64,000 nt of DNA from Sclerodactyla briareus. Lineage: Eukaryota; Echinodermata; Holothuroidea; Dendrochirotida; Sclerodactylidae. The DNA is taken from contig JAODTK010005556.1 of assembly GCA_026419785.1 (NCBI GenBank), forward strand, positions 124,001 through 188,000, written 5' to 3'. The notes beneath the pieces are model-generated. The model did not search any database, was not told where the DNA came from, and worked only from the letters and a program-made list of their open reading frames with translations. Both the position numbers and the translations under genes were made by a program. The first letter of the stretch is position 1. Each line of letters begins with the position of its first letter. Shown here piece by piece: positions 11,828-41,089 of the stretch.

Positions 11828-12051
11828 GGGTTTGAGCCAACAAGCTTGGACCCAGTGGATAAACCTTAGGGTCGACCGGCAGAGTAAACACAATGGATCT
11901 GATAAGCAGCTCATGAGGGGGGTTATTATGGCCCTAGGGGTTGCATGTTCCGAGGAGGCTAATGGTGGCCCCGGTGAAGACTGACTACAAGACGCGCCCT
12001 GGAGTTCTGGAGAATCGGTGTTACAACAGAGAGTTGTCTGCGTATATCAGA
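11828..12051 (+). CDS. otof: ferlin exon: end of C2C, source of a tandem array
   Basis: Acceptor ctctgtcag. Pieces in different frames are GFEPT, KLGPSG, GSTG (vertebrate GFLPTLGPAWVNMYGSTRN), then RGVIMALGVACSEEANGGP (vertebrate FRARLLLGLAVEIVDTSNP), and an end matching TPISE as PISE in the repeat consensus. The last ~98 bases, from about 11954, recur with the intron start in every ~178-bp unit of the array that follows. The donor here reads atatcag|agtatgag; the array consensus is atatcagag|gtatgag. Confidence 0.78.
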
Positions 12052-13640
12052 GTATGAGAGGTGGACTAGAGAGGGCCACCGACAAGAGAAGGGAGAGGGG
12101 GGGGGGCAGCCGGGGAGGAGGAGGAAGGGTTGTATGTGCAAAAGAGGCTACTGGTTAGCCGTTGACAAAAACATACAAGACGCTCCTGGAGTCTGGAGGA
12201 ATCTGTGTACTTACAACAGAGAGGTGTGCCTATATCAGAGGGTATGGAGTGATACTAGAAAGGGGTGGGAGGGGCATGAGGGGGGGGGGGGGGGGAGGGA
12301 ACGGTGTATGTACCACAAGAGGTTATTGGTTAGCAGACAAACAAATACAGACAGCTCCCTGGAGTATGGAGGAATCTGTCTACAAAAGAGAGTTGTTGCC
12401 TATATCAGAGGTATGAGAGGTATACTAGAAAGGGGGGTGGGAGGGGCATGAGGGGGGAGGGGGGGGGGGAGGGGGGAGGAACGGTTGTATACCACCAAGT
12501 GGTTATTGGTACCATGACAAAAACAACATACAAGACAGCTTCCTGGAGTCTGGAGGAATCGTGTTACAACAGAGAGTTGTCTGGCATATATCAGGGTTGA
12601 GATGCAGGATATACTAGAAAGGGGTGGGAGGGCAATAGGGGGGGGGGGGTGGGTGGGTTGAGGAGGTGCTATGTACCACAAGAGGTTTGGTATCCATGAC
12701 AAACAAATACAAGACAGCTCCCCCTGGAGTATGGAGGAAGCTGTGTACAACAGAGAGTGTCTGCCTATTCAGCGGTTGAGAGTATACTAGAAGAAAGGGG
12801 TGGGTAGGGGATGAGGGGGGGGAGCGGAGGAACGGTTGCTATGTACACAAGAGGTTATTGGTAGCAATGACAACAAAATACAAGACAGCTGCATGGAGTC
12901 TGGGAGGAATTCTGTGTTACAACAGAGTTGTCTGCCTATATCAGAGGTATGAGAGGTGTATACTATGCAAGGGGTGGGAGGGGCATGAGGGGGGGGGGGG
13001 GAGGACTGGTGGTATGGACCACACGAGGTTATTGGTAGCAATGACAAACAACAGACTAGGGGGGGGGGGGGACAGCTTCCTGGAGTCTGGAGGAATCTGT
13101 TACAACAGGAGTTGTCTGCCATATATCAGAGGTATGAGGTAACTAGGACAGGGGGTGGGGGTGGAGGGGCAGAGGGGGGGTTGGGGAGGAACCGGTTGTA
13201 TGTTACCACAAGAGGTTATTGGTAGCCATGACAAACAATATACAAGACAGCTTCCTGGAGTCTGGAGGAATCTGTGTTACAACAGAGTGATACAATAACA
13301 ACAGAAGTATATAAAACAGAGGTTATGAGGTTGGACTAGAGGGGGTGGGAGGGGGTGCTGACAGTCGGGGAGGGAGGAAAGTTGGGGGAGGAGTGAAAGG
13401 GCGTATGAACCAACAGAGGCTACTGTTAGCGTACAAACAGCATACAAGACAGTTCCCGCAGTCAGACGAAATCTGTGTAACAACAGAGAGTTGACTGCCT
13501 ATAACAGAGCTGAGAGGGTAGACTAGAGGGGGTCAGTGGGGGAAGGAGGTAGGGTTGTATGTACCGAAAAAGGCTACTGGTAGCCATGACAAACGACATG
13601 CAGACAGCTCCTGGCATCTAGAGTCGGAGTCAAGCAGACG
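11954..13640 (+). repeat. ~178-bp minisatellite built from an exon-intron junction
   Basis: About nine to ten imperfect copies. Each unit contains a copy of the last ~98 bases of the C2C exon (landmarks gaggttattggtagcc, tacaagacagct, ggagtctggaggaatc, tgttacaacagagagttgtc, tatatcagag), followed by ~80 bases of intron start (gtatgagaggtatactag, a GGGGTGGGAGGGGCATGAG stretch and a run of 8-18 G). The first unit is the exon itself (11954-12051). Copies differ mostly by 1-base indels. Every copy retains a donor-like cag(ag)|gtatgag. Confidence 0.88.
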
Positions 13641-14941
13641 CTGTCTCTTGCAGATGGCAGTGAGGATAGGCTATGGGAGGGAGAGGATGAGTTTGTCACT
13701 GTGAAGTCCATAAGTCGTTTCATGGGCGAATGAAAAATAGTTGGTGGGGTTCTGTGTCTAGATGCAGGTTATCTATGTTTTATCATTTGAATTTTCTCAA
13801 TTGGCTTTAATTAATAGCCATGTGGGGTTATTAATCCTTTGCATAAAGGGATTGATTCTGTTATACAACCGAGGTTCGCTTCTTTCTCAGGGCTGTTGCC
13901 AGTGGGAGGAGTGTTCCTCCTTGATAAACTGATCGGATCTCCTGAACACAATTCCAGCTTTCTTCTTTCTCACGAATGCTTGGCCGTAAGGAGGAGTTAT
14001 CTTCTGGCACAATCTTCTTGCATCCAATGATTGAAGTTGAGCTTGGACCAGAAACCGATCTCTCTGAGTTTCTCTATCGGGGGTAATGCCTAAGATAGCA
14101 AACACTTTAGAAGTATAGGCACAGCAGGGTTTTCAGTTTTGTCTTATCCAGTGGCTGAAAATGATGACTCGTTCCTGACCCATCCCTAATGAGCATCCCT
14201 GGTCAACGATCTCATAAGAATTACAAGAAACAATGATGGGGAATGGAATGTGTCTTGTTTAGGCAATCTATATTGATATCAACTTCCTAGTTGATTGGAG
14301 GATTATTCCCTTTCCTGAAGTCTCTCAGAGGGAACGCTATTACGTGTTGGGCTCTGCAGGTGACACTCCCTGCCACCCACCCACCCCTGCCACCCTCCAT
14401 CAACTCCATCTCTCCATTCCACCCACTTTTGGTCAGGTCACAGTTGTCTTGCCACTTTCCGGGAAACATTTGCAGCAATTTGGAGATATCACACTTTCGA
14501 GGTCTCGCAGAGATATGGGAGTCTTCACTGGCGAGTAATAGGAATTTGAATTTGCCAGGAATATAAGGTAGGAGTTCAATCAGGACTTCAATGAGTGCGA
14601 GGCTCTCACCTCGGGATGTGGTATATTACCCCAAATTTCTCAAAGATTTTAGGATAACTAGAATGATGGTAGAACCATTCACTTTAAGACAGGCAGTGGA
14701 TGTGGATATGGTAGGAGAGGATTCGAAAATAGTTCTTTGCACTGTGCGGGAATTCATCACTCCAAAGAGTTCAGGGAACATGGGAGCGGTGGGGGGGGGG
14801 GGGGTTGTCAAGGATTCATGACGCCTCGACCTCTAGGGGGACATTCATACATGGTGTGGTTTGACCTTGTAGGAACATTAGTAATAGAGTGGAGGAGGCA
14901 TGAACCACAAAGAGGATTACCATATATTTCATTCCTTGCAG
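13641..14941. other. Intron, an expected ferlin exon not located
   Basis: The vertebrate protein has a FerB-proximal segment (EEFFLFGAFLEASMID) between the C2C exon and the GNYGN exon, so at least one exon should lie here. A weak candidate is 14291-14359 (acceptor cttcctag, donor gcag|gtgaca, encoding RERYYVLGSA). I do not consider it supported. A G run lies at 14789-14802. Confidence 0.4.
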
Positions 14942-15266
14942 GGAATTTTGGAAACAAGATAGATGGCAAGAACCTATCATATCGGGCGGGGCAGTGTAGG
15001 AGGTACAGACGATGACGATGATGATGAGGAGGCATCTCTGATCAAGAACGATCCGACCCCTGACGTACCCGAGGTGTCTGTCTCTACCACGCCCCCCATG
15101 AACCCCGAAACGACCGAAGACGACAACTACAGGTACCTGAACCTAGCGAACAAAAGCAGTGTGTAATACATCAAGTTCCCTGCAGAGGAACCACCGACGG
15201 GAGGGACAGGGACTGTAAACCCCCAATTATCAACATCCTCAAGAGGGATAGCAAAGGAAGAAACTG
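14942..15266 (+). CDS. otof: ferlin exon: acidic linker and start of FerA
   Basis: Acceptor attccttgcag. It reads GNFGNKIDGKN (vertebrate GNYGNEVDG), then after a shift near 14990 an acidic DDDDDDEEASLI, VSVSTTPPMNP (vertebrate ASVSSTPPMRP), DDNYRYLNLANKSSV, an in-frame TAA at 15164-15166, YIKFP (vertebrate IYIKSWW) and, after another shift, DRDCKPPIINILKRDSK (vertebrate RRRLYNANIMDHIADK). The final ~33 bases recur in each unit of the next array. The donor region is aaactg|tgtagg here and aaactg|gtgagt in the repeats. Confidence 0.88.
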
Positions 15267-16430
15267 TGTAGGTCAACATTGACTGAGGCTGTACAGTAAG
15301 AACATCCATAATGGTATGGGAAAGAACTGGTGAGTCAACATTGACTGAGGCTGTACAGTAAAAACATCCTTACAGTACAGATCCTTAACGGTGTTGTATA
15401 AGCAAAGAAGAAACTGGTGAGTCAACATTGGCTGAGGTTGTACAGTAAGATCATCCTTAACAGGATTGCAAAGAAGAAACTGGTGAGTCAACATTGGCTT
15501 AGGCTTTACAGTAACAACATCCTTAACAGGATGGCAAAGAACTGGTGAGTCAACATTGACTGAGGCTGTACAGTAACAACATCCTCAACAGGATGGCAAA
15601 GAACTGGTGAGTCAACATTGGCTGAGGCTTTAAAGTAACAACATCCTTAACAGGATGGCACAACTGGTGAGTTCAACATGCTTCGGCTTAAGTAACAACA
15701 TCATAACACGCTTGCATAGAAATGGTGAGTCAACATTGACTAAGGTACAGTAAGAACATCCCTAACAGGATCGCAGAAAAACGGGTAAGTCAACATGGCT
15801 GAGGCTTAACGTAACAAATCCTTCCCGGGTAGCAAAGAAACTGTGAGTAAAATTGGTTAGTTCTTCATCAGTAACACCATCCCAACAGGATTCATAGAAA
15901 CGGTGAGTAAATTGACTGAGATGGTCAGTAAACAACATCCTCAAACAGGAAGCAAAGAATGGTGAGTCAACATGACTGCGCTGTACCGTAACAACATTCA
16001 ACAGGAGGCAAGGGAACTGTGAGTCAACATTGGCTGAGGTTGTACAGTAACAACATCCCTAAAGCATGGAAAAGACATGGGAGCGTCAACATTGGCTTAG
16101 GCTTGGAAGTAACAACTTTCCTTGAGAGGATAGCAAAGAGATGGTGAGTAAACACTGGCTGATATCGTTGTATAGAACTGATATCTTTAACAGGATGGAA
16201 AGAAAACTGGGAGTCCACATTGGTGAGGCTGTTCATGCAGTAACAACCTCCTTAAAGGATGGCAAAGAAATGAGGAGCATCATGACTGAGGCTGTACAGC
16301 CACAATATCTTTAACAGGATCGCAAAAAGAAGGGTGTAGTCAACAGTGATTGGGCTGTACAGTGACAGCACTCTCAACAGGATGGCGAAGAAACGTGTGA
16401 GTCAACAATTCATTAAGTTGTACAAAGATA
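15233..16430 (+). repeat. ~63-bp minisatellite built from an exon-intron junction
   Basis: About 18 imperfect copies. Each unit carries a copy of the last ~33 bases of the FerA-start exon (aacatcctcaacaggatggc then aaagaaactg) and ~30 bases of intron start (gtgagtcaacattg, gctgaggctgtacagtaac). Spacing of gtgagtcaaca is 56-65 with one 88, consistent with a 63-bp consensus with deletions. At 63 bp the unit is a multiple of three and the copies with ttggct are open on the + strand; those with ttgact have a TGA. Confidence 0.9.
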
Positions 16431-16578
16431 ATGTGTTGCTTGTGTGATGATTTTCTGGTCTAGCGAGTATTGCTTCTCTTAGTTCTGCAATGAATCAGAA
16501 AATAAACCATCAATGTCGAGAGGGCAGTTGCATTAGAGATTCCCCTTTATATCTTGCCAACCACTTCTTGATTCACAG

Positions 16579-16679
16579 GAGGAGGGTATCAGGAAGTCGG
16601 TAACGGCTCTCCAAAGACAACCCCCAAAACAGAGAAAGGATGCGAAGGCTAGCCCAGCGATTCAATCCCACAGCTGCCA
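16579..16679 (+). CDS. otof: ferlin exon: FerA
   Basis: Acceptor gattcacag, donor gctgcca|gtgagg. It opens EEGIRKSVTALQRQP (vertebrate EEGLNDIQEMIKTEK) and, in a second frame, continues ERMRRLAQRFNP (vertebrate ERRLRGVLEEL). A one-base shift lies in the C/A-rich stretch near 16620-16630. The match is weaker than for other exons, but position and splice phase fit. Confidence 0.7.
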
Positions 16680-16984
16680 GTGAGGAGATTTTAAAGTCGT
16701 CTACCTCTTGTGGATTTGGCATCAACTGTATTTACTTCAGGAGGTAGCGAGTACTTGATAATGCGGCAGTCAACTATAAGCCAAGCAAAGTGTTTTGGGG
16801 TCCAAGCCCTTCTGACAAGTGATCTTAAAACGTATGCTGATCCAAGTAACTTCGACATGCATGTCAGTGGGAGATTTTGACTAATTTTCTGTTTAATGGG
16901 CCCCATATTAGCTACTATTCAAAACTCCTTTCTGAACAAAAAGTTTGGATGGAAGGCTCTGCAAGCAAATCAAGTCAAGTTTGG

Positions 16985-17310
16985 TTCATGTTTACTAGAC
17001 GCCTCTCTCTACGTGGCTCTACTTGCAATTGCAATGGATCGTTCTGTCTTCACTCCATGTTTCTGCCTGTAATGCAGTGGAATTGTGGGTTTCTGGGTTT
17101 TGTTTCAGGAGATTGCAGTAAGTTCGTCAGTCGGCTTGTGAGCTAAGTTCCAATGTTTACTAGACGCCTCTCTCTACGTGGCTCTACTTGCAATGCAATG
17201 GATGAGTTTGGTCTTCACTCCATGGTTCTCCTGTAATGCAGTGGACTGTGGGTTTCTGGGTTTTGTTTCAGGAGATTTGCAGTAAGTCTCGTCAGTCGGC
17301 TGTGAGCAGT
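16985..17310 (+). repeat. ~165-bp direct duplication
   Basis: Two adjacent copies (about 16985-17148 and 17152-17310) share tgtttactagacgcctctct, acgtggctctacttgcaat, tgggttttgtttcaggagat and gtcagtcggct. They differ by a few indels. The pair lies in the FerA intron directly before the 35-bp minisatellite. Confidence 0.85.
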
Positions 17311-17324
17311 CACATTGGACATGA

Positions 17325-18055
17325 ATTCTTTGCTCCTCCTGTCTGAGAGTCATCCATGCTTCTTCGCTCCTCCTGTCTGAGGGTCATCCATGCATTCTGC
17401 GCTCCTCCTGTCTGAGGATCATCCATGCATTCTTCGCTCCTCCTGTCTGAGGATCATCATGCATTCTTCGCTCTCCTGTCTGAGGGTCATCCATGCATTC
17501 TTCGCTCCTCCTGTCTGAGGGTCATCCATGCATTCTTCGCTCCTCTGTCTGAGGATCATCCATGCATTCTTCGCTCTCCTGTCTGAGGGTCATCCATGCA
17601 TTCTGCGCTCCTCCTGTCTGAGGATCATCATGCATTCTTCGCTCCTCCTGTCTGAGGGTCATCCATGCATTCTGCGCTCCTCCTGTCTGAGGATCATCCA
17701 TGCATCTTCGCTCCTCCTGTCTGAGGATCATCCATGCATTCTTCGCTCCTCCTGTCTGAGGATATCCATGCATTCTGCGCTCCTCCTGTCTGAGGGTCAT
17801 CCATGCATTCTGCGCTCCTCCTGTCTGAGGATCATCCATGCATTCTTCGCTCCTCTGTCTGAGGATCATCCAGCATTCTTCGCTCCTCCTGTCTGAGGAT
17901 CATCCATGCATTCTTTGCTCCTCCTGTCTGAGGGTCATCCATGCATTCTCGCTCCTCCTGTCTGAGGGTCATCCATGCATTCTTCGCTCCTCCTGTCTGA
18001 GGATCATCCATGCATTCTTCGCTCCTCCGTCTGAGGATCATCCATACATTTCTGT
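17325..18055 (+). repeat. 35-bp minisatellite
   Basis: About 20 copies of a 35-bp unit with landmarks cattcttcgctcctcctgtc and tgagg(a/g)tcatccatg. Variation is a g/a alternation (gggtcat or ggatcat), ttc/tgc changes and single-base deletions. Long open frames appear on both strands only because the unit contains no stop in several frames. No exon or donor copy is recognisable in the unit, unlike the three junction arrays. Confidence 0.93.
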
Positions 18056-18178
18056 TTGTCACAAGAAGTCCATGGATGAATAAATGGTTGAGAATCTAGG
18101 TCTTAGGTAATCACGTGATGCAGCAATCAGTGGAGTTCAGTTGGAATGTACTCAATCTATTTATCTATTCAATTCCAG

Positions 18179-18275
18179 GAACTACTCAAAGCTGACAAAG
18201 GCAACGGGAGGTGGCTCCACCGCTGGAAAAACGAAACTTGATAAGGAGAGGCAGAAGTGGGTCAAGAAAGAGTTG
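18179..18275 (+). CDS. otof: ferlin exon: FerA, intact
   Basis: Acceptor aattccag, donor ttg|gtaagc. An uninterrupted frame encodes NYSKLTKATGGGSTAGKTKL followed by DKERQKWVKKEL. The vertebrate counterpart is FLSLADKDQGHSSRTRL then DRERLKSCMREL. It is a good example of an exon with no indel. Confidence 0.9.
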
Positions 18276-18539
18276 GTAAGCTTTTCAATTCTGTTTTTCG
18301 TCTTCATGCTCATGTGCATGTAGCTTGACCTACAGAACCTACAAATTTTGGTCCGTTGACATGAGGTTCCACTGAAATGTGTTGGTGAAAAAAGAAGCAT
18401 CTTATTGGGAACCTTCTGAGAGGTTACTTGTAATCACAAGTGGGCTGGTTACGGCAGCCATGTGATGAGATGTCCCCAGAAGACATGTTGTGTATAACTT
18501 GAGATGTGCGCTATGGTGCGGGCAGGCCAAGCGAGTTAC

Positions 18540-18620
18540 CATTGACCAGAGGGTAATGGCCTTTAGCCTTTTTAGACCGTATTATGGTCAAAAGCGCTAT
18601 ATAAGAACTTAATTATTATT
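18540..18620 (+). mobile_element. 3' end of a SINE-like element
   Basis: The segment ending aagcgctatataagaactt followed by an AATTATTATTATT tail resembles the 3' end of SINE or MITE families widespread in invertebrates, where a GCGCTATATAA motif precedes an ATT repeat. A related end (agagcgccctataaatg then TTATTATATTGTTATTA) lies at about 34015-34060. No tRNA-like head is recognisable. Confidence 0.4.
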
Positions 18621-18654
18621 ATTAAAACATCATGTCCAAATATTAAATTTGTAG

Positions 18655-18776
18655 GAGGACCTAGTGAAACAAGCTAAAGAGCAGAACAAGGGCAAGAAAT
18701 GGACCCACAAGATGATAAAAGAGAAACTGAAGGCAACAGAGGCTACCTCTCACGGGTCAAGTTCCTGGCTACGGAG
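18655..18776 (+). CDS. otof: ferlin exon: end of FerA
   Basis: Acceptor aatttgtag, donor gag|gtatgg. It reads EDLVKQAKEQNKGKKWTHKM, then IKEKLK, then after a shift near 18740-18750 GYLSRVKFLATE, matching vertebrate LQKLRFLADE. Charged and helical, as expected for FerA. One base gained or lost explains the break. Confidence 0.87.
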
Positions 18777-19613
18777 GTATGGAGATTTACATTGTTTACC
18801 TTAAGGTCTCATATGCTCTTTTATGCACTCACAAAAGAGAAATTTGTCTGGAATCATATATGATAATTATGGAGTTATATCTTGCAGTGTTGTACATTAC
18901 ACATATTTTGCAAATATTGTGACTTACTTTGTTGTGAATCTATGTTTGATGCTGAGCATGGTTCGTCAAATTGTGGGTCACATCTGCATCACTCTCCCTA
19001 AATGATCAGTCACAAAGCTGACTCGGTGGGGGAGGGGGGGGGGGGTTATTTTACTCAGATTATGCAGGAAAAGGTAGGGAAAGCTGCTCTCAGCTGCCTA
19101 CCAATGGTCATTTCCAAGGAATTGTAAGTAATCTGAGTGACTCATCAGGGGTGCGTCTGTGTGCGAGAATTATCTGACAATGACTCGCTTGGTCCAGGGT
19201 ATAGGATGCGTGTCATAAAATTAACGAGTGCATCACCACGTGAAGTACCACAGCAGCCTGCCCAATGTAAACTCAAAGCAAAACCTGGTACTAACAAAGG
19301 AAATTCCCTTAAACCTCGATAAAAATAGACACAAAGTGTCTCAAAGTATACGGCATAAGGCATTCATTGGTATATTTTGCCAGTGATACCTTGCATCATT
19401 CTGACACAGAGGTTGGAAAGAATACGATATGTATCAGAATAATCAGTTGACAATGTCTTGTTCGTTGCATATGATAACATCCGGGAGGCGAGTATTTTCC
19501 ATATTTTTGTATTCATGCTCACTTTGTTCAGATTTCTCGCAGTGTATTTCATAACCATGTTAGGCACTCCTTGCAGTTGATCAATTGTTGGTACGTGCTG
19601 CTCTATATTCCAG

Positions 19614-19765
19614 CCCCAGGACAGTATTCCTGATCTCTTCATCTGGCTACTGAGTGGGGGTAAGCGCATCGCCTGTGCCAGGATACCCGCGGGGAGATTG
19701 TATTCTCTGTTGTCGACGAGGAGATGGGGGAAAACTGCGGGAGGATGCAGACGGCGTTCCTCATG
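19614..19765 (+). CDS. otof: ferlin exon: start of FerB
   Basis: Acceptor tatattccag, donor atg|gtgagc. Frame 1 reads PQDSIPDLFIWLLSGGKRIA and CARIPAG. The frame after position ~19692 reads EIVFSVVDEEMGENCGRMQT. The vertebrate counterpart is [42 protein letters not shown]. One extra G in the GGGG at 19689-19693 would join the halves exactly, which points to a homopolymer miscall. Confidence 0.93.
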
Positions 19766-20192
19766 GTGAGCACGTTCAGATGTAATGATAGTAAAACAAA
19801 AGCCCAGTGCAAATGCAGTGCGTGTTCACATGGTGATGTGAATTTTTCTGCAGATAGTTCTCAGTTTTCAGTCAATTGATATGTGAATCAAAATACGGAC
19901 CTATGGTTCCACAACTTTCTAACTTTGCGTCCGATACATCTGCCTACATCAGGCACTATCTGCTTTAGTCCAAACCAGGTCATTCCCCTGATGACAAATC
20001 TGCAAGTCTGGTGGTATCGGACGTGCAAGCATACAAAGTTGCAAAAAAGGAAAGTCCAGATATGGTTTCATTATTTTATTTTAGTTATCATTACTACATT
20101 CTTTTGCAGATGTTACTTTGATCTAGAACTGCATGGTACACACTGTAGCAATCTCGGAGAATAACTGGCTGCTGTTAGTAAGTCCTGGTTGT

Positions 20193-20420
20193 ACTTAAAG
20201 GACAACTGCAGTGCAGGGTCAACTATAATAGCTGAAAAATAACAGAATGTGTCAGTCCCAACATTCAAACAATTCTCCTTAACAGAGTTAGAAGCCTACA
20301 AATGTTGCGTGTGTGTATTGCACAAGATTCCATCATGCAATAGTTATCGATGTCATACTCGTACAACCCTGCAAATATTTTTTGTCTCCTGTTGAAATGG
20401 ACATTTCATTATCAGGTCTG
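20193..20420 (-). mobile_element. Inverted-repeat element copy, reverse orientation, truncated
   Basis: It begins ttaaaggacaactgcag and matches the reverse complement of the right part of the element at 58274-58818. Shared blocks, in order, are agctga(a)aaa, aatgtgtcagtcc, attctcctta, tgcacaagat, atcatgcaat and gatgtcatac. The left part of the element is absent, so this copy is truncated. It lies in the intron between two FerB exons. Confidence 0.7.
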
Positions 20421-20571
20421 TCAACTGAAGATCTAAAAAAATAGGGAATCATTCTATATGGCTTCACAACTGTGAGAAAGTGAGGACGTTGCTAGTTGAA
20501 TGGTTGAAGAAAGTGTGATTAAATCTTCCAAACTAATCCAGCAAGCAATCTCTTGTTGCTCCTCTTTTCAG

Positions 20572-20764
20572 TTCCCTGGTAAGAAAGGAGATTCTGCTGA
20601 GGGTTACGCTATCCAGGCTAAGCTGGAGCTGTGTCTGTGGCTGGGCCTCAACAAACACCGAAGGACATGCTCAAGAATCTGCCCCAGGGCTACGACCAAC
20701 CCTCCACAGCTCAAGAACTGCCTCAACCCCTCGTACCTGCCGCCTGCCACGATAACGTACAATC
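20572..20764 (+). CDS. otof: ferlin exon: FerB core
   Basis: Acceptor cctcttttcag, donor aatc|gtgagt. It encodes FPGKKGDSAEGYAIQAKLEL then CLWLGLNKHRR, against vertebrate [20 protein letters not shown] then YLWLGLSKQRK. After two compensating shifts (near 20665 and 20720-20740) it reads DMLKNLPQGYD and then PPATITYN (vertebrate PPVSLVYT). This is the most diagnostic ferlin block in the window. Confidence 0.95.
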
Positions 20765-22330
20765 GTGAGTTGATTTAATTGTCTGTAGTGTCATATTAGA
20801 CCACTCGAACTTGAATATCAGAACACAAGAACTCGGCCCTCAACCCTCTTGAGCTCAAGAAACGGATATCTGAACAAAATAGATGACCTGATCTAATCTT
20901 ATCCATATTCATTAGCAGTCATGGTTATTCAAATCCTTTCTCTAATAACCTATACATACCTATCAGCTGATCAAGGTGTCACATTCATTATTCCTGGTTC
21001 CTGGTTGGTTAATTATGAATAGTTAGATTGTCTGACCATCAATATTCATTTAAAGTCCGTAACTATTCACATCCTTTCTTCCGAGCCCAAACTCGGAGGA
21101 ATCAATGCAGTTATGACAGTGTGCGAGAGTGTATGTGACTCATTGACTCATTGATTGTGAACATGACAACTGGGCCAGGCATGAGTGGATGAAGCTAATA
21201 CCTGGTATGTATGCTCCCCATGCTGAGTACATGAACCCTATCGTTTTGGGGTCAGGTCAAATGTCATCTCGAGTCGCCAGCGGTCAAACTCGTTAGGAAC
21301 ATGAGGAGTCCAGCATGCCTGATCTGGTAAGGTTAAATTTTTATACAATATACACTGCTTTCTTATGGAGAGTACAAGAACCCTATTTATTTTGATACAC
21401 ATTCTGTGCAATTTCTGATAAAAATTGGAATCAACCGAAGAAAAATTTGGGGCAGTTCTAGTTGTAAACGGATGAGTTGTCAGGGCCTGGAAGGACAAAG
21501 CTCATTGTTAGTTTTCCATGGTGAGTCTAATAAATCCATTATTTCAGGGTCAGGTCATTTGCACTGATCAGGAGAAATTTTAGTGTGGATCATCTTTACT
21601 TGTGGGAAGTAGACAAAGCCTATTGTTTTGGGAGATAGAAGCTATTGGGAAAATAGGGAAATATAAGAGAAAAATGGATCTTGATTATAGGACAAGCTCA
21701 AAGGACACTGCAGCGTGATTATACAGGGGCTAATTTATAGTTGGATCCAAAACTGAAGGGGTCAGGGCCAAACCGGAAGTCCATAGGACTTTTGTTACAG
21801 AGCTTATATTCATTGCAGTCAGGGGTGATATTTTTTTAACAGGACAAAAAGAAAAAAGAAATGAAATGTGGAAGCGTGAAACAGATGATATTTTAAGCAT
21901 TTTAGTTGTATGCACAATTATCATCCATGCCTGGATGAATTTAGCTTGTACTTCGAATGTATGTTCTCGGGTGACTGTGCTGTTCTGAAGGTTTGGGTTG
22001 GGGTAAGCAGAGGTGTGGAGTCTTGTTAATACAAGTCATGAATGCTTCGTGTCCATTTCGGGTGCACCTTGGCTATATTATTGCTTTTGTCCAGATGGGT
22101 ACTATAGTTTTAAGTAAATATAGAGAGTTTGTAAAGAACGGTCATTTTTTATCCAGTGCTAAATGAGTATACATGATTCCAATTGCTAAAATTTATGTCA
22201 TTTGATGAAAGTTACAGAAACAATTGGAAGGATTACTAGGCCGTTCAGCTCCCTATTTTGAAAGTGAATCATCTTACCTAATCTTATCAGTGTTCATTAG
22301 TACCCACGAATATTCACATCCTTCCTCCAG

Positions 22331-22458
22331 TAAACCAACACCTACCCGCTTAGAATGCCATATCGACCAGGCCAGGTCCCTTGTTTGATCCGCCGGTCCG
22401 GTCCTCTTCTCCGATCCTTTTAGCCAGGGTGGTCATGCTGATCAGAGCAACTACCAAG
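22331..22458 (+). CDS. otof: ferlin exon: start of C2D, source of the 47-bp array
   Basis: Acceptor ccttcctccag, donor accaag|gtattg. It reads YPLR, then CHIDQARSL (vertebrate AHMYQARSL), FSDPF (vertebrate LSDPF, the first calcium-loop region of C2D), ARVVMLIRATTK (vertebrate ARVFFINQSQ). Several 1-base shifts separate these. The last ~28 bases resemble the second half of the 47-bp unit that begins immediately after the donor. Confidence 0.85.
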
Positions 22459-25400
22459 GTATTGCAAATCCTCATAGATTTGCTGGGTGTGAGCAAACAG
22501 ACCAAGGTATTAAAATCCTCCTAGATCTGCTGGATGTGGCAAACAGACCAGGCGGTATGAACATCCTCATATATCCGCTGACGTGAGAAAACAGACCAAG
22601 ATATGACATCCTTCATAGCTCTGCTGGATGTGAGCAAACAGAACCAAGGTATTACATCCTCAGAGATCCCTGGATGTGGAGCAAACATACCACGTATGAC
22701 CATCCTCATAGATCTGCTTGATGTGAGCAAACAGACCGAGGTATGAACATCCATAGATCTGCTGGATGTGAAGCAAACAACCAGGTTGAATGTCCTCATA
22801 GCTCTGCTGGATGTGCTCAACAGAACCAAGGTATGAACATCCTTCATAGATCTGCTGAATGTGCGAACAGACCAAGGTATGAACTCCTCATAAATTGTGG
22901 AATGTGAGCAAACAGACCAAGGTTGAACATCCTCATAGATCCGCTGAATGTGAGCAAACAGACAAAGGTATGACTCCTCATAGATCTGCTGGATGGAGCA
23001 AATCGACAAGGGATGAACGTCCTCATAGATCTGCTGGAATGTTAGCACACAGACCAGGTAGAACATCCTCTAGTCTGCTGATGTGGAGCAAACAGACCAG
23101 GTATGAAGGTCCTCAGAGATCTGCTGGAATGTGAGCAAACAACCAAGGTAGACATCCTCATAGACCTGCGAATGTGATCAAACAGACAAGGTATGAACAT
23201 CCTCATAGATCTGCTGGTTGTGAGCAAACAGACCAAGTATGAAGGTCCTCATGGATCTGCTGGATGTGAGCGCATAGCCCGGTATGAAACCTCATAAATC
23301 CGCTGGATGTGAGCAAACAGACCAAGGTTGAAGGTCCTCATAGATCGCTTGGATTTGAGCAAATAGACCAGGTATGACATCCTCATAGATCTGCGATGTG
23401 AGCAAACAGACAAGGTATGACATCCTCATAGATCTGCTGGATGGAGCACACAACCACGTATAAGGTCCCTCATAGATCTGCTGATGATGAGAGCAAACAG
23501 ACCAAGGTATTAACATCGTCATAGATCCGCTGGGTGTGAGCAAACCAAGACCAAGGTATGAAGGTCCTCATACATCTGCTGGATGTGGGCAAATAAGACC
23601 AATGTAGGACATCCTCATAGCATCTTGCTAGATTTGAGGGCAACGACCAAGGTATGAACATCCTCATAGATTCCGCTGGTATGTGAGCAAACGGACCAAA
23701 GTATGAACCTCTCATAGATCTTCTGGTTGTGAGCAAACAGACCAAGGTATGAACATTCTCATAGATCTGCTGGATGTGAGCAAACAGACAAGGTAATGAA
23801 CATCCTCTAGAATCTGCTGGTTGTGAGCAAACAGACCAAGTAGGCACTCCCCCCCCCCTCAAGATCTGCTGGATTGTGAGCAAACGACCAAGTTATGAAC
23901 ATCCTTATAGATCTGCTGGATGTGAACAACAGACCAAGGTATAACATCCTCTAGATTCTACTGGATTGGTGAGCAAATAGACCAGGTATGAACGCCTCAT
24001 AGCTTGCTGGATTTGAACAACAGACCAAAAGTAGACATCCTCATAGATCGGCTGGTTGTGAGCAAACAGACCAAGGTATCATCCTCTAGATCTGCTGGAT
24101 GTGAGCGAACAGACCAAGGTATGAACATTCTCTAGATTCTCTGATTTGAGGTACCAGACCAGATATGAACAGTCCTCATAGATCTTGCTGGGGTTGAGCA
24201 AATAGACCAAGGTATGAATGTCCTCATAGGATCTGCTGGATGTGAGCAAATAGACCAAGGTCTGAACATCCTCATAGATCTGCTGGGGTGTGAGCAAATG
24301 ATCCAGGTATGAAGTCCTCATGATGGTCTGGATGTTGAGCAAATAGAACGCAAGGAAGAACATCTCATAGATCTGCTTTGGTGAGCAAATAGGCCAAGGT
24401 ATGAACAATCCTCATAGATCTGCTGGATGTGCGCAAACAGACCAAGGTATGAATATCCTCATAGATCTGCTGGATGGGACACATAGACAAGGTATGACGT
24501 CCTCATAGATCTGCTGGATGTTTAGCAAATAGACCAATATGAACATCCTCAAGTTGCTGGATGTGAGCAAACAGACCAGGTACTGAACATCCTCATAGAA
24601 GATCTGCTGGATGTGAGCGAATAGACCAAGGTATGAAGGTCCTCATACATCTGCTGGATGTGAGCAAAAAGACCAAGGATGAACATCCTCATAGATCTGG
24701 CTGGTGTGCGCAAATAGACCAGAGGTATGAACGTCCTCATAATATCTGCTGGATTGAGCAATAGACCAAGGTATTGATCATCCTCATAGATCTTGCTGCT
24801 GGATGAGAGCAAATAGACCAAGGTATGAACATCCTCATAGATCTGCTGAATGTGAGAACAGACAGGATGAACATCCTCATAGATTGCTGGATCTGAGCAA
24901 ACAGACCAAGGTAAGAAACAATCCTCATAGATCCGCTGGATGTGAGCAAAACAGAAGGTATGAACATCATCATAGATCTGCTGAATGTGAGCAAACAGAC
25001 AAAGGTATGAACATTCCTCATAGATCTGAGGGATGCGAGCAACGACCAAGGTTGAAGGTCTCATAGATCGCTGGATGTGACAAACACCACCAAGGATGAA
25101 CATCCGCATAGATGCTGAATGTGAGCAACACAGACAAGGTATGAACATCCTCATAATCTTGCTGGATGTGAGCAAACAGACCAAGGGCTGAAACATACTC
25201 ATAGATCGCTGTGAATGCTGAGAACAACGACAAAGGTATGACCATCCTCATAGATCTGTGGATGTGAGCAAAAAGACCACGTATTGAACGTCCTCATAGA
25301 TTGCTGAATGTGAGCCAACAGACAAGGATTGAAAATCCTGCCAATCTGATGATGAGAGCAAACAGACCAAGGTATTGAAGGTCCTAATAGATTGCGGGAT

Positions 25401-27150
25401 GTGAGCAAACAAACAAAGGTAGGAACATCACCTCATAGGATCTGATGAATGTGGGCAAACAGACCAAGGTATGAACATCCTCATAGATCGCGGGATGTGA
25501 GCAAACAGACCAAGGTATGAAGGTCCTCATACATCTGCTGGATGTGAGCGAAGAGACAAGGTATGAAATCCTATAGATCCGCGGATTGTGAGCAAACGAC
25601 AAGTAGAAGGTCCTCATAGATCTGCATGGATGTGAGCAATGGGACCAAGGGGAGGGAAAAATCCTCATAGATTGCTGAATGGAGCAAACGACCCAAGGTA
25701 TGAACATCCTCATAATATGCTGGAGTGAGCAACAGACCAAGTATGAAGGTCCTCATAGATCTGCTGGATGTGAGCAAATGACCAAGGTATGAACATCGCA
25801 TAGATCCGCTGTGTGAGCATAACAGACCAGGTATGAAGGTCCTCATACATCTGCTGGATGTGGGCCAAATAAGACCAAGGCTATTGAAAATCTCATAGCT
25901 CTGATCGATGTGAGCAACAGACCAAGGTAGAACAGCCTAATAGATCGCTGGAGTGAGCAACGGCCCAAGTAGGAACATCTCTAGATCTGCTGGATGTGAG
26001 CAAACAGGACCAAGTATGCAACATCCGCATATGATCTGCTGGATGTGGGCAAAACAGGACAAGGTATGACACATCCCATAGATCGGTGGATTGAGCAACA
26101 GACCAAGGATGAAATCCTCATAGACTGCTGGATGTGAGCAACAGCCAAGGTATGAACATCCTATAGATTGCTGGATGTGAACAAACAGACCAAGGTATAA
26201 CATCCTCATAGATCTACTGGATGTGAGCAAATGAACAAAGGTTGAACGGCATCAACGACTCTGCTGGATGTGAACAAACAGACCAAGGTATGAACATCCT
26301 CATAGCTCGCTGGTTGTGAGCAAACAGACCAAGGTATGAACATCCTCATAGATCGGCTGGATGTGAGCAACAGACCAAGGTTGAACCATCCTATAGATCT
26401 CTGGATGTGAGTTACAACAGACAAGATATGAACATCCTTCATAGATCTGTGGGTGGAGCAAATAGACCAGGTCTGATGTCTCATAGATCTGTGGATGTGA
26501 GCAAATAGACCAAGGTGAACATTCCTCCAGAGATCTGCTGGGTGTGAGGCAAATTGATCAAGGTATGGAAGGTCCTCATAGATTGCGGATGTGAGAAATA
26601 GACCAAGGAAATGAACATCCTCATAGATCTCGCTGGGTGTGAGCAAAGCCAAGGTATGAACATCCTCATAGATCTGCTTGATGTGAGCAAACAGACCGAG
26701 GTATGAACATGTCATAGAGTCGCTGGATGAGAGCAAATAGACCAAGGTATGAACGTCCTCATAGTATGCAGGATGTGAGCAAATAGGACCAAAGTATGAA
26801 CATCTCAAAGATTTGCTGGTGTGAGCAACAGACCAAGGGATGAACATACTATAGATCTGCTGGATTGTGAGCAAATAGACCGAGGTATGAACGTCCCATT
26901 AAATTGCTGGATGTGAGCAAAAAGACCAAGGTATGAACATCCTCATAGATCTGCTGGGTGTGAGAAATAGACCAAGGTATGAACGTCCTCATAGATATGC
27001 TGGATGTGAGCAATAGACCAAGGTATGACATCCGCATAGGATCGCTGGATGTGAGCAAATAGGACCAAGGTATGAACATCCTCAGAGATCTGCGAATGTG
27101 AGCAAACAGACCAAGGTATGAAACCTCCTCATAGATTGCTGCATGTGAAT
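22459..27150 (+). repeat. 47-bp minisatellite, ~100 copies, starts at a splice donor
   Basis: A 4.7-kb array with a 47-bp consensus: gtatgaacatcctcatagat, ctgctggatgtgagcaaaca, gaccaag. It starts at the first intron base after the C2D exon (accaag|gtattg). The second half of each unit resembles the exon's own tail (exon: tgctgatcagagcaa, ctaccaag). Each unit therefore ends in a donor-like ccaag|gtatga. Copies vary mainly by single-base deletions, plus subtypes aacatcctc, aaggtcctc and aacgtcctc. The short reverse-strand frames it creates are not genes. Confidence 0.93.
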
Positions 27151-28083
27151 TTCACCCGAAGTTTATTTGCATGGTATGTGTGCGTCATCTCAAGTCAGCC
27201 ACAGATTGGTCTGGGATGTGTGCTGCTTTAATTGTGTGCATCCCAGGTGAAGAGCAGAGAGATGCTTGTGAGCTTTCGATATTTGTACTGTCTTGTCAGT
27301 GTTAACATTCACTAGAAGTTATCGAAGGTGGGTTTAATGAGCTCAATAAAGTAATTAGGAAGTTCCGTAACTATTGTGCTTCCTACACACTGGATTCGAA
27401 TGATAGTTTAGGGCAGGCCGTCACCACTGGCTTACAGGTCAATAGATAAGTTTTATTTACTACTACCTGTGCTTCTTCATGCCCATGCTATTTGAAATGT
27501 AGAATGTCTTGTGAGCTTGAAGCAATATTTTGATAGCTGACAACAATTGCACGGCGGTTTGTCTTTGCTAATATTGGCCAGACTTCCTCCACCTTCTATG
27601 ACCTCGATTGTATTACATTAGGAAGGTCTGTAACTCACGTTTCATGCCCACTGTGCTTTGCGAACCAATGGTTTAGGCATGTACATTAACTCACAGATCA
27701 ATAACATAACTTGTTAGTTACCAATAACTAGTGTCCTTCTCCATGCCCCGTTCTAATTACCCAGATAAATATTGTTGGTAGCATGTGGGGGAGGGGTTGG
27801 TGTATGTGTTCATAGTCCAATGAGGGATTTATAGTTCACAGATCTCAGAGCTGAAATGTTGGCGGGCGAGTCTCGACGGGTTGACTTATGGAATAAAGTG
27901 GGGGTGGGGGGGGGGTTGTGCAAAAGAAACCCAATAATTGGCAGTTACTGGGTAAACTGCTAATTAGATGAGCATCAGGAGGTGAGTATGGTCCTAGGAA
28001 ATAGCAGTTGTACCAAAACCAGTAGGGATTAGGGATCAAATTAGTTTGTTCTAATACAAACCAATGGTTGTGTTCGCTTTCAG
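27151..28083. other. Rest of C2D intron
   Basis: No exon is visible. It contains a G run at about 27900-27914 and an imperfect ~240-base internal similarity (two stretches each with gaagttccgtaact or gaaggtctgtaact-like text followed by a cccactgtgcttt-like block, 27357 and 27619). Confidence 0.45.
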
Positions 28084-28217
28084 GTCATCGAAGAAGATTT
28101 TATCAGTCCACATGGGCGAGTTGCTGGTTCTGAACGATGTCGCGATCCACGGAGAGCGGAGGACTTCAAAGAGAGACCCCCATTGGTGGCGGTAGCGATA
28201 TTTGATGTCGAGTTGGG
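28084..28217 (+). CDS. otof: ferlin exon: middle of C2D
   Basis: Acceptor cgctttcag, donor ttggg|gtatgt. It reads VIEEDFISP, then MGELLVLNDVAIHGERR, then ERPPLVAVAIFDVELG. The vertebrate counterpart is EVLNETLCPTW, DQMLVFDNLELYGEAHE, DDPPIIVIEIYDQDSMG. Frameshifts lie near 28110 and 28165. The intron before it holds the 47-bp array. Confidence 0.9.
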
Positions 28218-29379: not shown

Positions 29380-31080
29380 GCCCCGGGACAAGGGGGCCTC
29401 CTAAATAGCACATTATTCAAGATTCGAAAACATTTAAACACATGGCCACCCGACAAGAGGTCAAATTCAGGTCAGAGGTCACACACATGCAGGTCAACAT
29501 TATATCACAATGGTGAACCAATCAGCCTTCGCAGATATTCCAATTTCCGGGATAGCCAAAAAACAGTTTTTGACCCCTAAGTGACATTGAAGACTTTAAT
29601 GATATGACAATTTTTACTGAATCTTGTTACTCTCCATGTGATCAGCCAATCCTAGGAGGCATTTGCATTCTGCTGAAACACACCAGTGCTATGGCAGAAA
29701 AAGTACTCAAATAGTTTTTCGATCCCTAAGTGACTTAAGACCTTCAGTGACAGGGCGGTTTTTATGAAAAATGTTACAACTCCATGTGATACATCCACTC
29801 CTAGAAGTATATTGAATTCCAATGACATGTCCAATGTTATTGCGAAAAAAAGGGTATAAAAATTTAACTTTGACCCCTTGTAAACTACCAAAGAGTAAGT
29901 GCCCGATCGGAGCGGGAGTTGTTTCTATCAATAAAGGACACAAGCCAATCACAGATGCCAAAAAATAACCAGTTTTCTATTTTTTTGCCCGTAACTCCTT
30001 CAAATAAGCACATTTATTCAAGATTTGACTCACCCACTTGACACCGGACAGAGATCAAATTCAGGTCAGAGGTGGTCACACAACATGCAGGTCAAACAAT
30101 TATATCACAATGGTGAACCATCCAGCCTTCGCAGATATTCAAATTTTCCGATTATAGCCAAAAACAGTTTGTGACACCTAAGTGAACTCGAATGACTTTA
30201 ATGATATGGACAGTTTTTATGAGAAATTGTGACTCTCCTGTGATGACATCACTCCCAAGGAGCATTTGCATCTGATGAACACACCCAGTTTGCTATGGCC
30301 GAGAAAGTACTAAATCAGTTTTTGACCCCTAAGTGCCGTAATGACTTCAATGCATGGCGGTTGTTTTATGAAAATTGTACCACTCCATGTGATGCATCCA
30401 CTCCTAGAAGCATATTGCATTCCAATGACTGTCCAAGTTTATTGCAAAAAGGTATAAAATTGAACTTTGACCCCTTGTAACTACCTGGAAGAAAAGTATG
30501 CATCCGATCGAATCGGGAGTTTGTTTCCCCTCCCTCCATCAAGTCACCAAAGCTCCTATCACATTCAAAAATACCAGTTTCTACTTTTTTTGCCAGTACT
30601 CCTTAACTATAGCCACCGTTATTCATATTCGCACCTTTAACCAACTTACCACCCGACAGAGGTCAATTCAGGTCATAGGTCAACACATGGGGGTCAACAA
30701 TATATAACAATGGTGAAACCATCCCAGCCTCGCAGATATTCAATTCTCCGATTATAGCCAAAAAACTTTTTGACCCCTAAGTGACCCCCGAATGACCTTC
30801 AATGATATGACGTTTTTTAGGAGAATTGTTACTCTCCATGTTATACTCACGCCTAGGAGCTGTGCATTCGAGAAACAACACAACCAGTGCTATTGGGAAA
30901 AAGTACTAAAATCAGGTTTTGACCCCTAAGTGACCTTTGATGACCTTATGACATGGCGGTTTTTTATGAAAATTATTACACTTCCATTGATGCAGCCATC
31001 TCCTAGTCGCATATTGCATTCCAATTCACAAGTCCAATGTTATTGCGAAAAAGTATTAAACACATCATTTTGACTGATCA
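29380..31080 (+). repeat. ~600-bp unit in three tandem copies
   Basis: The landmark tcaaattcaggtcagaggt occurs at 29459, 30056 and (as tcaattcaggtcataggt) 30662, about 600 bases apart. Each unit also contains gcctcgcagatattc-like text, gacccctaagtgac twice, actccatgtgat, and aactttgaccccttgtaa. Inside each unit two related halves occur (gacccctaagtgac ... atgacatggcggtttttatg). Third-copy divergence is highest. The function is unknown; it lies in the 7.6-kb C2D intron. Confidence 0.85.
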
Positions 31081-34500: not shown

Positions 34501-35130
34501 ACATCTAGGCGCAGGTGAATGATTTTAATCATGTTGATCAAAGTCAGTGATAAAAAACACTGATTCAAAGCCCCTTCCCCCAAATTTCCTTTTTGTTGAG
34601 AAGTGTTTTTTAAAGTGAAATGAATTATTGGGAATCAGTCACAAATACCAATTTACTCATGTAGACGTATAGTCATCTAAACAATGCTATGTAGGTATTC
34701 CTGAACACTGTTATAAGTGATTGTGCAAGAAACAAGAATTAGGTTTTCCATCACTCCCATTCAAATGGCATGTTTAGGTCAGAATTTATTGCGATGATTT
34801 TCTGTCTCTAATTCAATTCTATCATTCATTACAAGCGGAAGTGTAGCGCACAATTTCAAACTCTCATTTACCTTTCCACCCATTTTAAAACGTAGTGAGA
34901 TTTTCAAACAGATTGTATTTCCTCTGAAGGATCTGATAAACTAAGGCTTCAGAACTGTTAAAACTGAAAATGCTTCTAGCAACAGTGAATGCCTAGGACT
35001 GATGTCCATATCATTTAGATTTGACTCAAGTCAAAGAATATGAAGTATTGAATAAAAAATGAGAAGAAAGAAGGAAAACCCACCCTGTATAGGAGGCATT
35101 GAAAGGGTTGATTGCTAGGTGAGAGTGTAA
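31581..35130. other. C2D intron, nothing recognised except a SINE-like 3' end
   Basis: About 3.5 kb without an exon, known RNA or clear repeat, apart from the SINE-like end near 34015-34060. Short open frames exist on both strands, but none has splice context matching the ferlin or a recognisable motif. Confidence 0.45.
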
Positions 35131-35330
35131 TATTCCAACCTATTGTCCTTGGGCCTCTGGTTGGTATCCAGCCTATTGTCCTTACCCTCTGGTTGGTATC
35201 CAGCCTATTGTCCTTACCCTCTGGTGGTATCCAGCCTATTGTCCTTACCCTCTGGTTGGTATCCAGCCTATTGTCCTTACCCTCTGGTTGGTATCCAATC
35301 TATTGTCCTTAGCCCCTTGGTTGGTAGAAC
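35131..35330 (+). repeat. 32-bp minisatellite
   Basis: About six copies of a 32-bp unit with landmarks ttggtatccagcctattgtc and cttaccctctgg. It lies about 520 bases before the last C2D exon. Copies are nearly identical, unlike the older arrays. Confidence 0.9.
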
Positions 35331-35428
35331 CAGGGGGTTAAGAAGTTTAAGGAAGTATAAGAAACGGCTCATGGTCCCACATTAAACTAACACTGATTGA
35401 AGTTGGTGTGGTTCTACCAAGGGGTTAA
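35310..35428. repeat. Short inverted repeat flanking ~85 bases
   Basis: The text ccccttggttggtagaacc at about 35311-35330 is mirrored by ggttctaccaaggggtt at about 35410-35427. The enclosed ~85 bases could be a tiny inverted-repeat element that inserted at the end of the 32-bp array. Confidence 0.5.
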
Positions 35429-35845
35429 AAAACTAGAATCAATAAATTGCAATTGATGAGGGGGCAAATCTTGTTATTTTTACCATTTTGATGCCAATTT
35501 TTGCACATGTGACAAAAAGATTTTGTCTTCATTCTACTGAAAATAGCTCTCCCCTAGCGATTCCTTCAGTTTAGGCCTCATTGGCAGTAGTATGACTCAT
35601 ATACTTGTGGTTGAAAGAGCTTCATCGCACTGAAGTAAACAGAAAGAGAAGTACTCGATATGTACTGTTGAATGGCTACATGGGCACAATTTTAACTGAT
35701 TACTAGAAGAGTAAAATCCCGGTTGCCAGCAAATAGCATGTTGGGCGAAGGCAGTGCGGAAATGATTTTTTAATACAAGTCAGTTTCAAGTGGAGAAACC
35801 TCCTTATGGTATTACTGCCTACAAACTTGGTAATCCCATCTACAG

Positions 35846-35972
35846 GACGACTGCGAGTTTATTGGCCGAGCGCTGATTCAGCCGATAATCAAGCTGTCTA
35901 GCGAGCCGTATGAGAGCCGTTCTTCCCAAAGCTTCTCCAGGTGCACCATGTGTACCGGGGCACCGTCAGGTG
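35846..35972 (+). CDS. otof: ferlin exon: end of C2D
   Basis: Acceptor catctacag, donor aggtg|gtgagt. It reads DDCEFIGRALIQPIIKLSSE (vertebrate KADFMGRTFAKPLVKMADE) and, after a shift near 35928, FPKLLQVHHVYRGTVR (vertebrate FPPQLEYYQIYRGNAT). The vertebrate segment that follows (AGDLLAAFELLQ) was not found downstream, so a short exon may be missing or too diverged to see. Confidence 0.9.
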
Positions 35973-36104
35973 GTGAGTACTGAGCGGTCGAGATGATCCA
36001 GGTATTGTAACAACAGGATCTGTAACATGATGGATATCATTCAGGAGGAGGGAGGGACATAAACACTCAATGTTGGCATGGTCATTCGCAGTGTTGTAAC
36101 AAAT

Positions 36105-36260
36105 CACTAAATTTGACTTGAGTCATGACTTCCAGGAATTTATGTAGCTCAAGTCGAGTCACCGACTTGAGTCACTGTTCTCTTTAAAAGGGGAGAATTT
36201 CCACAAAGTTGTTCGAGTCATTGCATATTGAAAAAAGTAGTGACTCGAGTAATGACCAAA
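36105..36260. repeat. Cluster of GACTTGAGTCA-type palindromic motifs
   Basis: Six or more copies of (ac)ttgagtca or gactcgagt in both orientations (for example ttgacttgagtcatgact, gtcgagtcaccgacttgagt, gtgactcgagtaatgac) lie within 150 bases. This is typical of decayed inverted-repeat transposon ends. AP-1-like TGAGTCA cores occur as a by-product. Confidence 0.5.
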
Positions 36261-36923
36261 AAACGTTCAGTTGTTTTGATTCTCTTGGTTATGTGCGGCT
36301 TTGGGTCTTTCGGGGAGTTTGTCCTCCCTGACCCTTTCCCACTATAAACTGAACTAAGGCTAGCTATGGAGCACTGGAAACTTGTCTGTAAATGATATCA
36401 GTGGGTAGCCACAGAAAGGATTCTTCTGGGTCTTCCCCTCTTCCCCCTCCACCCCCACCCTGGGGCCCACATGACCCATGTAATCGAAACATTTGAGCAC
36501 AAAACCACAAAAACCCAAAAAACTGCATGTTCAGCAGCTGTTCTTGCATAATTTGGCTCCATTTTGCATGTAGGGTCTATAAATTGCATTCTTGCCGTTT
36601 AATTGTAGGGGAGGAGGTTGCTCTGTATTTCAGGGTGATTTTCGACCCACTCGATGGTGATATCGACTCACTGCAAAAGGGAATCAGATGACCTGAAAGT
36701 TGGTCAGCAGTATCATTGGCTCATGGTGAATATGGGATGGGTGCTGGAATTTGAGGTATTAAAAAAGGTCGTCTTGAAAAGGTCATCATGAGCCCACCAG
36801 AATTACCTTGTGGCCAGCTTGCTGACCTCGCAGTTACCCCGGTCAAATGAATCTACTAAATTGGTGCACCATGTCCAGAGGCCTCATCCCCTTTAATGGG
36901 CGTCTATTTTTATTTATGTACAG

Positions 36924-37062
36924 CGAACGGCGGTGAACTGCCAGCGGACGTCCCGCCGATCGATGTACCAGAGCCCGAAGAGCCTCCCAAGAAGAACGAG
37001 CCCCCTCCCCCGATACCATCCCGGATACCATCAAACCAAAGATGAGGCGGTACAGGATTGAG
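36924..37062 (+). CDS. otof: ferlin exon: proline-rich linker before C2de
   Basis: Acceptor tttatgtacag, donor gag|gtaacc. It reads NGGELPADVPPIDVPEPEEP, PKKNEPPPPIP and, after a shift near 37025, DTIKPKMRRYRIE (vertebrate GIRPVLSKYRVE). The vertebrate linker here is likewise proline-rich. It joins in phase 0 to the next, intact exon (RYRIE then ILFWG). Confidence 0.9.
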
Positions 37063-37742: not shown

Positions 37743-37904
37743 ATCCTCTTCTGGGGTATGCGTGAGGTGAAGCGGCTCCAGTTGATGACAGTGGACAAAC
37801 CACGGGTGGACGTCGAGTGTGGTGGAGTGACCATCAACTCATCTATAATACCCAGCGCCACAAAGAACCCTAACTTCCCGGACAATGTCCGAGTCATGGA
37901 TGTG
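37743..37904 (+). CDS. otof: ferlin exon: C2de, intact
   Basis: Acceptor cttaacaacag, donor gtg|gtgagt, 162 bases, phase 0 at both ends, 54 codons uninterrupted. It contains ILFWGMREVKRLQLMTVDKP, RVDVECGG, SSIIPSATKNPNFPDNV. The vertebrate counterpart is [45 protein letters not shown]. This exon shows that the gene is under coding constraint. Confidence 0.97.
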
Positions 37905-41051: not shown

Positions 41052-41089
41052 GTGAGTAACATTATCAGCCGTTTTTGTCGCCCAGTTGT

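Follow-up and report, generated by a model that had tools for sequence, protein, structure and literature searches.

The question raised by this locus is why three minisatellites of different unit length, in a single gene, should each carry copies of an exon–intron junction. The original prediction held that the three arrays start in an exon tail and duplicate the 5' splice junction, and it proposed a common cause. The window, by which we mean the whole 64,000-nt stretch of DNA analysed, carries an otoferlin-type gene on the + strand, identified by homology (tblastn of the Apostichopus japonicus otoferlin-like protein record P0001). A 51-residue exon piece gave P0001 as its top match (91% identity over 63% of the query), followed by proteins of the crinoid Anneissia and the starfish Acanthaster, and a translated stretch of the window matched the solved structures of otoferlin, myoferlin and dysferlin over one exon. 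Exons of P0001 were placed by tblastn on the + strand from approximately 7500 to 63306, reaching residue 1172 of 2069; the otoferlin-like gene therefore continues past the window. Weak matches to other echinoderm proteins point to two more exons upstream of about position 7500.

Exon boundaries were mapped by hand from homology ends and GT/AG, giving 22 donors and 23 acceptors, since anchors s and t lack a donor and anchor u lacks an acceptor. Donors were placed at a GT beside the homology end, so that an intact GT at the 19 donors away from the arrays exists by construction and is no evidence. A frameshift-tolerant alignment of 19 of the 24 mapped exons (a, b, t, u and v left out) gave identities to A. 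japonicus of 0.45–0.90, with 34 frameshifts and 3 in-frame stops; relative to P0001, the 16 exons away from the arrays contain 23 frameshifts in 2046 nt, and the three array exons contain 11 in 565 nt. A pseudogene was considered and set aside as less likely, since the scattered single-base slips fit sequence error better. The arrays, the exons that flank them and a control array are as follows:

11828–12052, + strand: exon f, the tail of which is taken as the template of array 1 (P0001 residues 174–246, identity 0.73, 8 frameshifts)
12053–13640, + strand: array 1, approximately 8–9 further copies of a 169-nt unit (exonic at least 113 nt; intronic at most 56 nt, G-rich)
13973–14082, + strand: exon g, next after array 1 (tblastn match to P0001 250–280 at 13982–14071)
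14942–15266, + strand: exon h, the last ~45 nt of which are taken as the template of array 2 (P0001 284–363 aligns to 14944–15190)
15267–16420, + strand: array 2, approximately 18 copies of a 63-nt unit (45 nt exon and 18 nt intron)
16579–16679, + strand: exon i, next after array 2, beginning EEG (identity 0.45, 4 frameshifts)
17320–18050, + strand: 35-nt intronic minisatellite, the control array, with no mapped splice site (Tandem Repeats Finder and alignment)
22354–22458, + strand: exon n, the last ~26 nt of which are taken as the template of array 3 (P0001 612–641 aligns to 22356–22448)
22459–27146, + strand: array 3, approximately 101 copies of a 47-nt unit (26–28 nt exon and 19–21 nt intron)
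28084–28217, + strand: exon o, next after array 3, reading VIEE...FDVEL (homology to P0001)

Each of the three repeat units consists of an exon tail, the 5' splice junction and 18 to at most 56 nt of intron. Tandem Repeats Finder (TRF) with lenient settings located the arrays at 12082–13288, 15408–16424 and 22436–27148, and wrap-around alignment revealed poorer copies that extend array 2 back to about 15225 and array 1 on to about 13640. The predicted unit lengths of 63 and 47 bp stand, while the 178 bp given for array 1 is refined to 169 nt; the corresponding TRF periods are 62, 46 and 174–187. Including the partial first copy within the exon, wrap-around alignment gives copy counts of 9.6 (169-nt unit), 19.0 (63-nt unit) and 102.1 (47-nt unit). 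The unit donors read GAG/GTATGA (array 1), CTG/GTGAGT (array 2, whose unit amounts to 21 open codons) and AAG/GTATGA (array 3), and the arrays adjoin authentic exon ends of their own gene at 12052, 15266 and 22458, respectively.

The exonic parts of the units encode LYVPQEVIGSHDKQIQDSFLESGGICVTTESCLPISE (array 1), RLYSNNILNRMAKKL (array 2) and LLDVSKQTK (array 3), all in the phase of the gene. Their best ungapped places in P0001 are residues 210–246, 367–381 and 637–645, and the residues that follow directly (TAAG, EEG and TIEE) are those that open the next exon, which implies phase 0 at all three junctions; the array 1 peptide, for example, ends ...SCLPISE, immediately before TAAG of P0001. 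The unit peptides score 95, 56 and 31 in P0001, with best scores of 32, 32 and 28 among 300 shuffled units each, so that the margin for array 3 is small. Of the five proteins compared (P0001 and four further echinoderm proteins), all carry the array 1 and array 2 peptides at the homologous position, whereas that of array 3 is found there in P0001 alone; array 3 is thus the least certain of the three in its exonic part. At the DNA level, the array 1 unit matches its first-copy exon with a score of 142 (maximum of 500 shuffles, 50), while the scores of array 2 (40, shuffle maximum 39) and array 3 (26, shuffle maximum 27) are not above chance, and the case for these two arrays accordingly rests on protein register and end position.

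The composition, register and position of the units were observed directly, and together they bear out the predicted start in exon tails and duplication of the 5' splice junction; the observation holds more strongly than first stated. The arrays are real and recurrent within the otoferlin-like gene, and they are of a known kind. P0001 has single copies of these peptides and no repeats at these points; in our reading, the array accordingly derives from the exon. Exon g lies downstream of array 1, which therefore lies in an intron; the start of this exon is TNAGRKEE-like when read with an assumed one-base slip, and the assembly has no intact AG before it. The tail of exon h past 15190 is unaligned to P0001 and was placed by unit register and a weak DNA match, and the final 10 nt of exon n were placed by unit register. 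In the assembly, the donor of the first copy is TATGAG in array 1 and TGTAGG in array 2, neither with GT at +1.

Turning to the distribution of such repeats over the gene, junction copies within 1500 nt were found at 3 of the 22 mapped donors and at 0 of the 23 acceptors, and no comparable copies lie within that distance of any other mapped boundary. Local-copy scores downstream of the donors of exons f, h and n were 75, 61 and 50, against at most 27 on either side of the other 19 donors and at most 30 at the 23 acceptors. Across 400 random positions outside the arrays, the mean was 22, with 95th and 99th percentiles of 30 and 45 and a maximum of 89, the last of which indicates that other local repeats exist in the window.

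For the placement test, nine arrays were hand-picked from the lenient TRF list (score at least 200), leaving out periods below 10, nested rows, period multiples and the poly-G run at 48686–48813; arrays 1–3 were taken to begin where their exonic template begins. In a separate step of the analysis, 8000 candidates were scored and 2063 matched, of which the best 120 were listed. Besides the minisatellites discussed here, the nine-array count includes a 601-bp unit (2.8 copies), a 165-bp unit (1.9) and a 97-bp unit (1.9). The prediction had counted three of three arrays at exon 3' ends, which was a selected count: a donor is contained in 3 of the nine arrays, or in 3 of the seven with at least 2.5 copies, and an acceptor in none. 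The part of that claim which called the coincidence unlikely by chance fared better, with random placement giving three or more donor hits at P 0.0012 (seven arrays), 0.0036 (nine, rigid shift) and 0.0041 (nine, independent), values to be discounted because they were computed post hoc on the window that suggested the idea. Within that limit, random placement is an unlikely explanation for the repeated appearance of one architecture, which all three arrays have in common. The statement that the other minisatellites do not span donors was also upheld: no mapped exon boundary lies inside the 35-, 32- or 15-bp arrays. The 15-bp array (38727–38896) has the unit GGTCAGTCGAGTGTA, with a donor-like AG/GTCAGT; it begins approximately 820 bp past an exon end and is therefore not a boundary duplication.

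An association with donors would be expected if active 5' splice sites, through U1-bound pausing or R-loops, raised the local rate of tandem duplication. The containment of a donor in three of the seven to nine arrays (placement P 0.001–0.004), the lack of any array at the 23 acceptors and the shortness of the intronic part past the donor in arrays 2 and 3 (18 nt and 19–21 nt) point in this direction. Against it, the test is post hoc and confined to one gene, three donors against no acceptor is a 1-in-8 split by a one-sided sign count, and acceptors are hit too in the amphioxus repeats discussed below, as far as the available part of the report goes (PMC3087553). Base skew does not suggest R-loops as the common cause that had been put forward: G skew is strong around array 1 only (+0.42 in 12001–14000), falling to +0.07 in 14001–16000 and lying between +0.01 and +0.15 in 22001–28000. 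We therefore regard triggering by donors as unlikely.

A second proposal was that spare donors are selected, the copies acting as reserve or decoy U1 sites for back-up splicing, as a guard against early polyadenylation or, in array 2, for a regulated exon extension of 21 codons. With a scoring matrix built on the 19 other donors (threshold 5.56), donor-like 9-mers occur at 13.2, 12.1 and 11.9 per kb in arrays 1–3, against 3.85 per kb elsewhere and 0 in the 35-nt array; at about three times the density found elsewhere, they would offer the spliceosome many sites to choose among. This density is what reserve sites would produce, as is the open, in-frame unit of array 2 (a chance of approximately 0.12 for a unit of that size), but the consensus donor of array 3 scores 5.5, just under the threshold. 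Use of a downstream donor would lead at once to V-stop in arrays 1 and 3 and to 21 extra codons in array 2, and the peptides are single-copy in the A. japonicus protein record.

Conservation within the arrays likewise gives spare donors no clear support. The donor GT is intact in 7 of 9, 15 of 18 and 84 of 101 full copies of arrays 1, 2 and 3, where the medians for any adjacent pair of unit positions are 7, 13 and 82 copies; 9 of 62 pairs in array 2 and 16 of 46 in array 3 are better kept than the donor GT. The GT thus stands somewhat above the pair median in arrays 2 and 3, and mild constraint is possible. All nine donor positions equal the consensus in 2, 6 and 37 full copies, respectively, and in none of the three arrays is the difference between these positions and the others of the unit significant (p at least 0.20). 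For array 3, donor positions average 4.2 substitutions against 7.0 at the remaining positions (p 0.20), and 6.2 deletions against 3.8 (p 0.61). Exonic and intronic parts of the units vary alike. Third codon positions of the exonic parts show no concentration of changes in arrays 1 and 3 and a slight excess in array 2 (38 against 32 and 27 changes). The variation pattern fits neutral minisatellites, with array noise limiting the test, and selection for spare donors is, in our assessment, very unlikely. An exonised protein repeat in array 2 was considered separately and set aside as less likely, as the third-position excess is only slight and the A. japonicus record contains no such insert.

The quality of the sequence bears on the copy numbers and on the reading that the arrays are mostly an assembly or read artefact, with copies multiplied or stitched by the assembler. 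Relative to its consensus, array 3 carries 6.5% substitutions, 2.3% insertions and 4.2% deletions, and arrays 1 and 2 are noisier; the nearby 35-nt array is much cleaner (2.6%, 0% and 1.6%), which speaks against an artefact. Divergence in array 3 is 0.11–0.15 by ten-copy blocks and 0.06 in the last single copy, amid heavy noise, with the most variable positions being 8, 9 and 39 and, less so, 22, 27 and 28. Its variant pattern recurs 49 copies further on (z 11.3, the second-highest value being 4.3 at lag 5), clearly for copies 14–52 against 63–101 and weakly for the first 13 (4 of 39 shared, against an expectation of 2.1). At this lag, 38 of 62 variants at the six positions are shared, compared with 12 of 96 other substitutions, and the indels do not recur (7 of 97 deletions and 1 of 51 insertions), the values at neighbouring lags being 4–8 of 91–99 deletions and 0–2 insertions. 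The halves are 82.9% identical at lag 49 and 82.6–83.0% at neighbouring lags, so that the doubling is read from the variant pattern and not from overall identity.

Either a large part of array 3 was duplicated in the animal itself, or two versions of a shorter array were joined during assembly; we lean towards the latter, although old divergence following a true doubling would also bring the halves to about 83% identity. Copy numbers are soft as a result, and this longest array may be over-assembled. The numerous, unshared indels favour sequencing error as a component of the array noise, and frameshifts occur in single-copy exons too (the 23 noted above). For these reasons, no biological conclusion can be drawn from this sequence about the missing GT at the first donors of arrays 1 and 2. 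While the lag-49 pattern with unshared indels and the frameshifts away from the arrays are what an artefact would leave, an assembler that can extend a repeat is hardly likely to create three distinct arrays, each in register with its own exon end, and the lag-49 identity of the halves is not above that of neighbouring lags. A predominantly artefactual origin is accordingly very unlikely. Elsewhere in the window, a run of almost pure G (128 bases, 48686–48813, 96% matches) is possibly an assembly fault.

Minisatellites that carry splice donors have counterparts elsewhere. Turri and colleagues reportedly described, in 1995, a minisatellite with multiple splice donors in the transcript of the interferon-induced 6-16 gene, which we take to be IFI6, and the human CBS 31-bp VNTR presumably lies at the exon 13/intron 13 boundary. 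The available part of one account gives this VNTR as c.1444_1467+7, that is, 24 exonic and 7 intronic nt, in 16–21 copies (PMC2630376); its unit, like ours, comprises an exon tail and a donor, whereas CBS has one array, a shorter unit and known population polymorphism. In the portions available of two amphioxus studies, minisatellite-like duplications of exon–intron boundaries are termed mirages, with cases in Adh3, troponin C and the globins BflGb6 and BflGb9 and with repeats of PGBD5 compared with them; unit lengths are 10–72 bp (Adh3), 150–160 and 157 bp (globins) and 60 and 108 bp (PGBD5) (PMC3087553, PMC3902484). According to the same portion of the first, the repeats occur at both exon ends, and Adh3 data and globin RT-PCR suggest that regular splicing is undisturbed by them (PMC3087553). 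The claim that no such class had been described is thus contradicted. From what is available of a further report, variable tandem repeats at exon–intron boundaries may form new introns in human paralogs (PMC2812944); the likeness is a tandem duplication across an intron–exon boundary, one duplication having there given a new intron.

To judge from those accounts, the arrays resemble mirages in that the tandem unit contains an exon–intron boundary and many copies keep splice signals. Further marks of mirages would be copy numbers that vary between haplotypes or cells and a homogenised centre flanked by more diverged edge copies. The arrays described here differ in being found in what is probably an echinoderm, three in one gene and at donors only; going by the best protein match, the host is most likely a sea cucumber and not one of the cephalochordates, the reported host group of mirages. 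Copies number approximately 9, 18 and 50–100 here, against the 6 and 3 units given for BflGb6 in the text available. Probably new, then, are the phylum, the finding of three such repeats in a single gene and the copy numbers. Among the titles listed in searches of open-licence literature, none reports an echinoderm case, although one may exist; the available parts of PMC13228809, PMC6823432 and PMC4039745 have no bearing on echinoderm donor-spanning repeats.

We consider it likely that the arrays are mirage-type minisatellites, tolerated as the first donor remains usable. At three places in one gene, the last coding bases of an exon and its 5' splice site would have undergone a short tandem duplication, and slippage or unequal exchange would then have multiplied the copies within the intron. 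With the exon and its donor still in front, splicing could keep using the first donor, and the copies would leave with the intron, which is why the arrays could survive in a conserved coding gene. We infer duplication followed by slippage, use of the first donor, neutrality and a sea cucumber as host; if the GT loss and the unaligned tails of exons h and n are real, the first donor may not be the one used. That such arrays are a recurrent, genome-wide form of minisatellite birth in echinoderms and lancelets, biased to exon ends and making spare 5' splice sites frequent in conserved genes, is possible but doubtful. If mirages do occur in echinoderms too, they would be no lancelet oddity but a wider animal way of seeding splice-junction minisatellites. 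They would serve as a source of alternative donors, of exon extension and of intron gain, and as a natural experiment on how the spliceosome settles on the first among many near-identical donors; for gene annotation in long-read assemblies they would be a trap.

Other searches and repeats in the window were also recorded. An exact 28-mer of array 3 had no match in viral_contigs, from which records near the window may be omitted; no structured RNA matched Rfam at gathering score, and Pfam on three frames of 35000–45000 returned a single match, to a baculovirus family, below its cutoff. The 165-bp unit forms a tandem pair (92% alike, 16988–17307) directly before the 35-nt array in the same intron. 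The 601-bp unit (2.8 copies, 78% match) occupies 29397–31060 in the intron after exon o, with no mapped splice site inside, and two of its copies contain inner repeats of 148–149 bp. Finally, an 18-bp repeat in an open frame at 40913–40987, beside a linker exon matched at 40769–40924 (PNGDVPAGGETPANGEVPQ), is probably a coding minisatellite.
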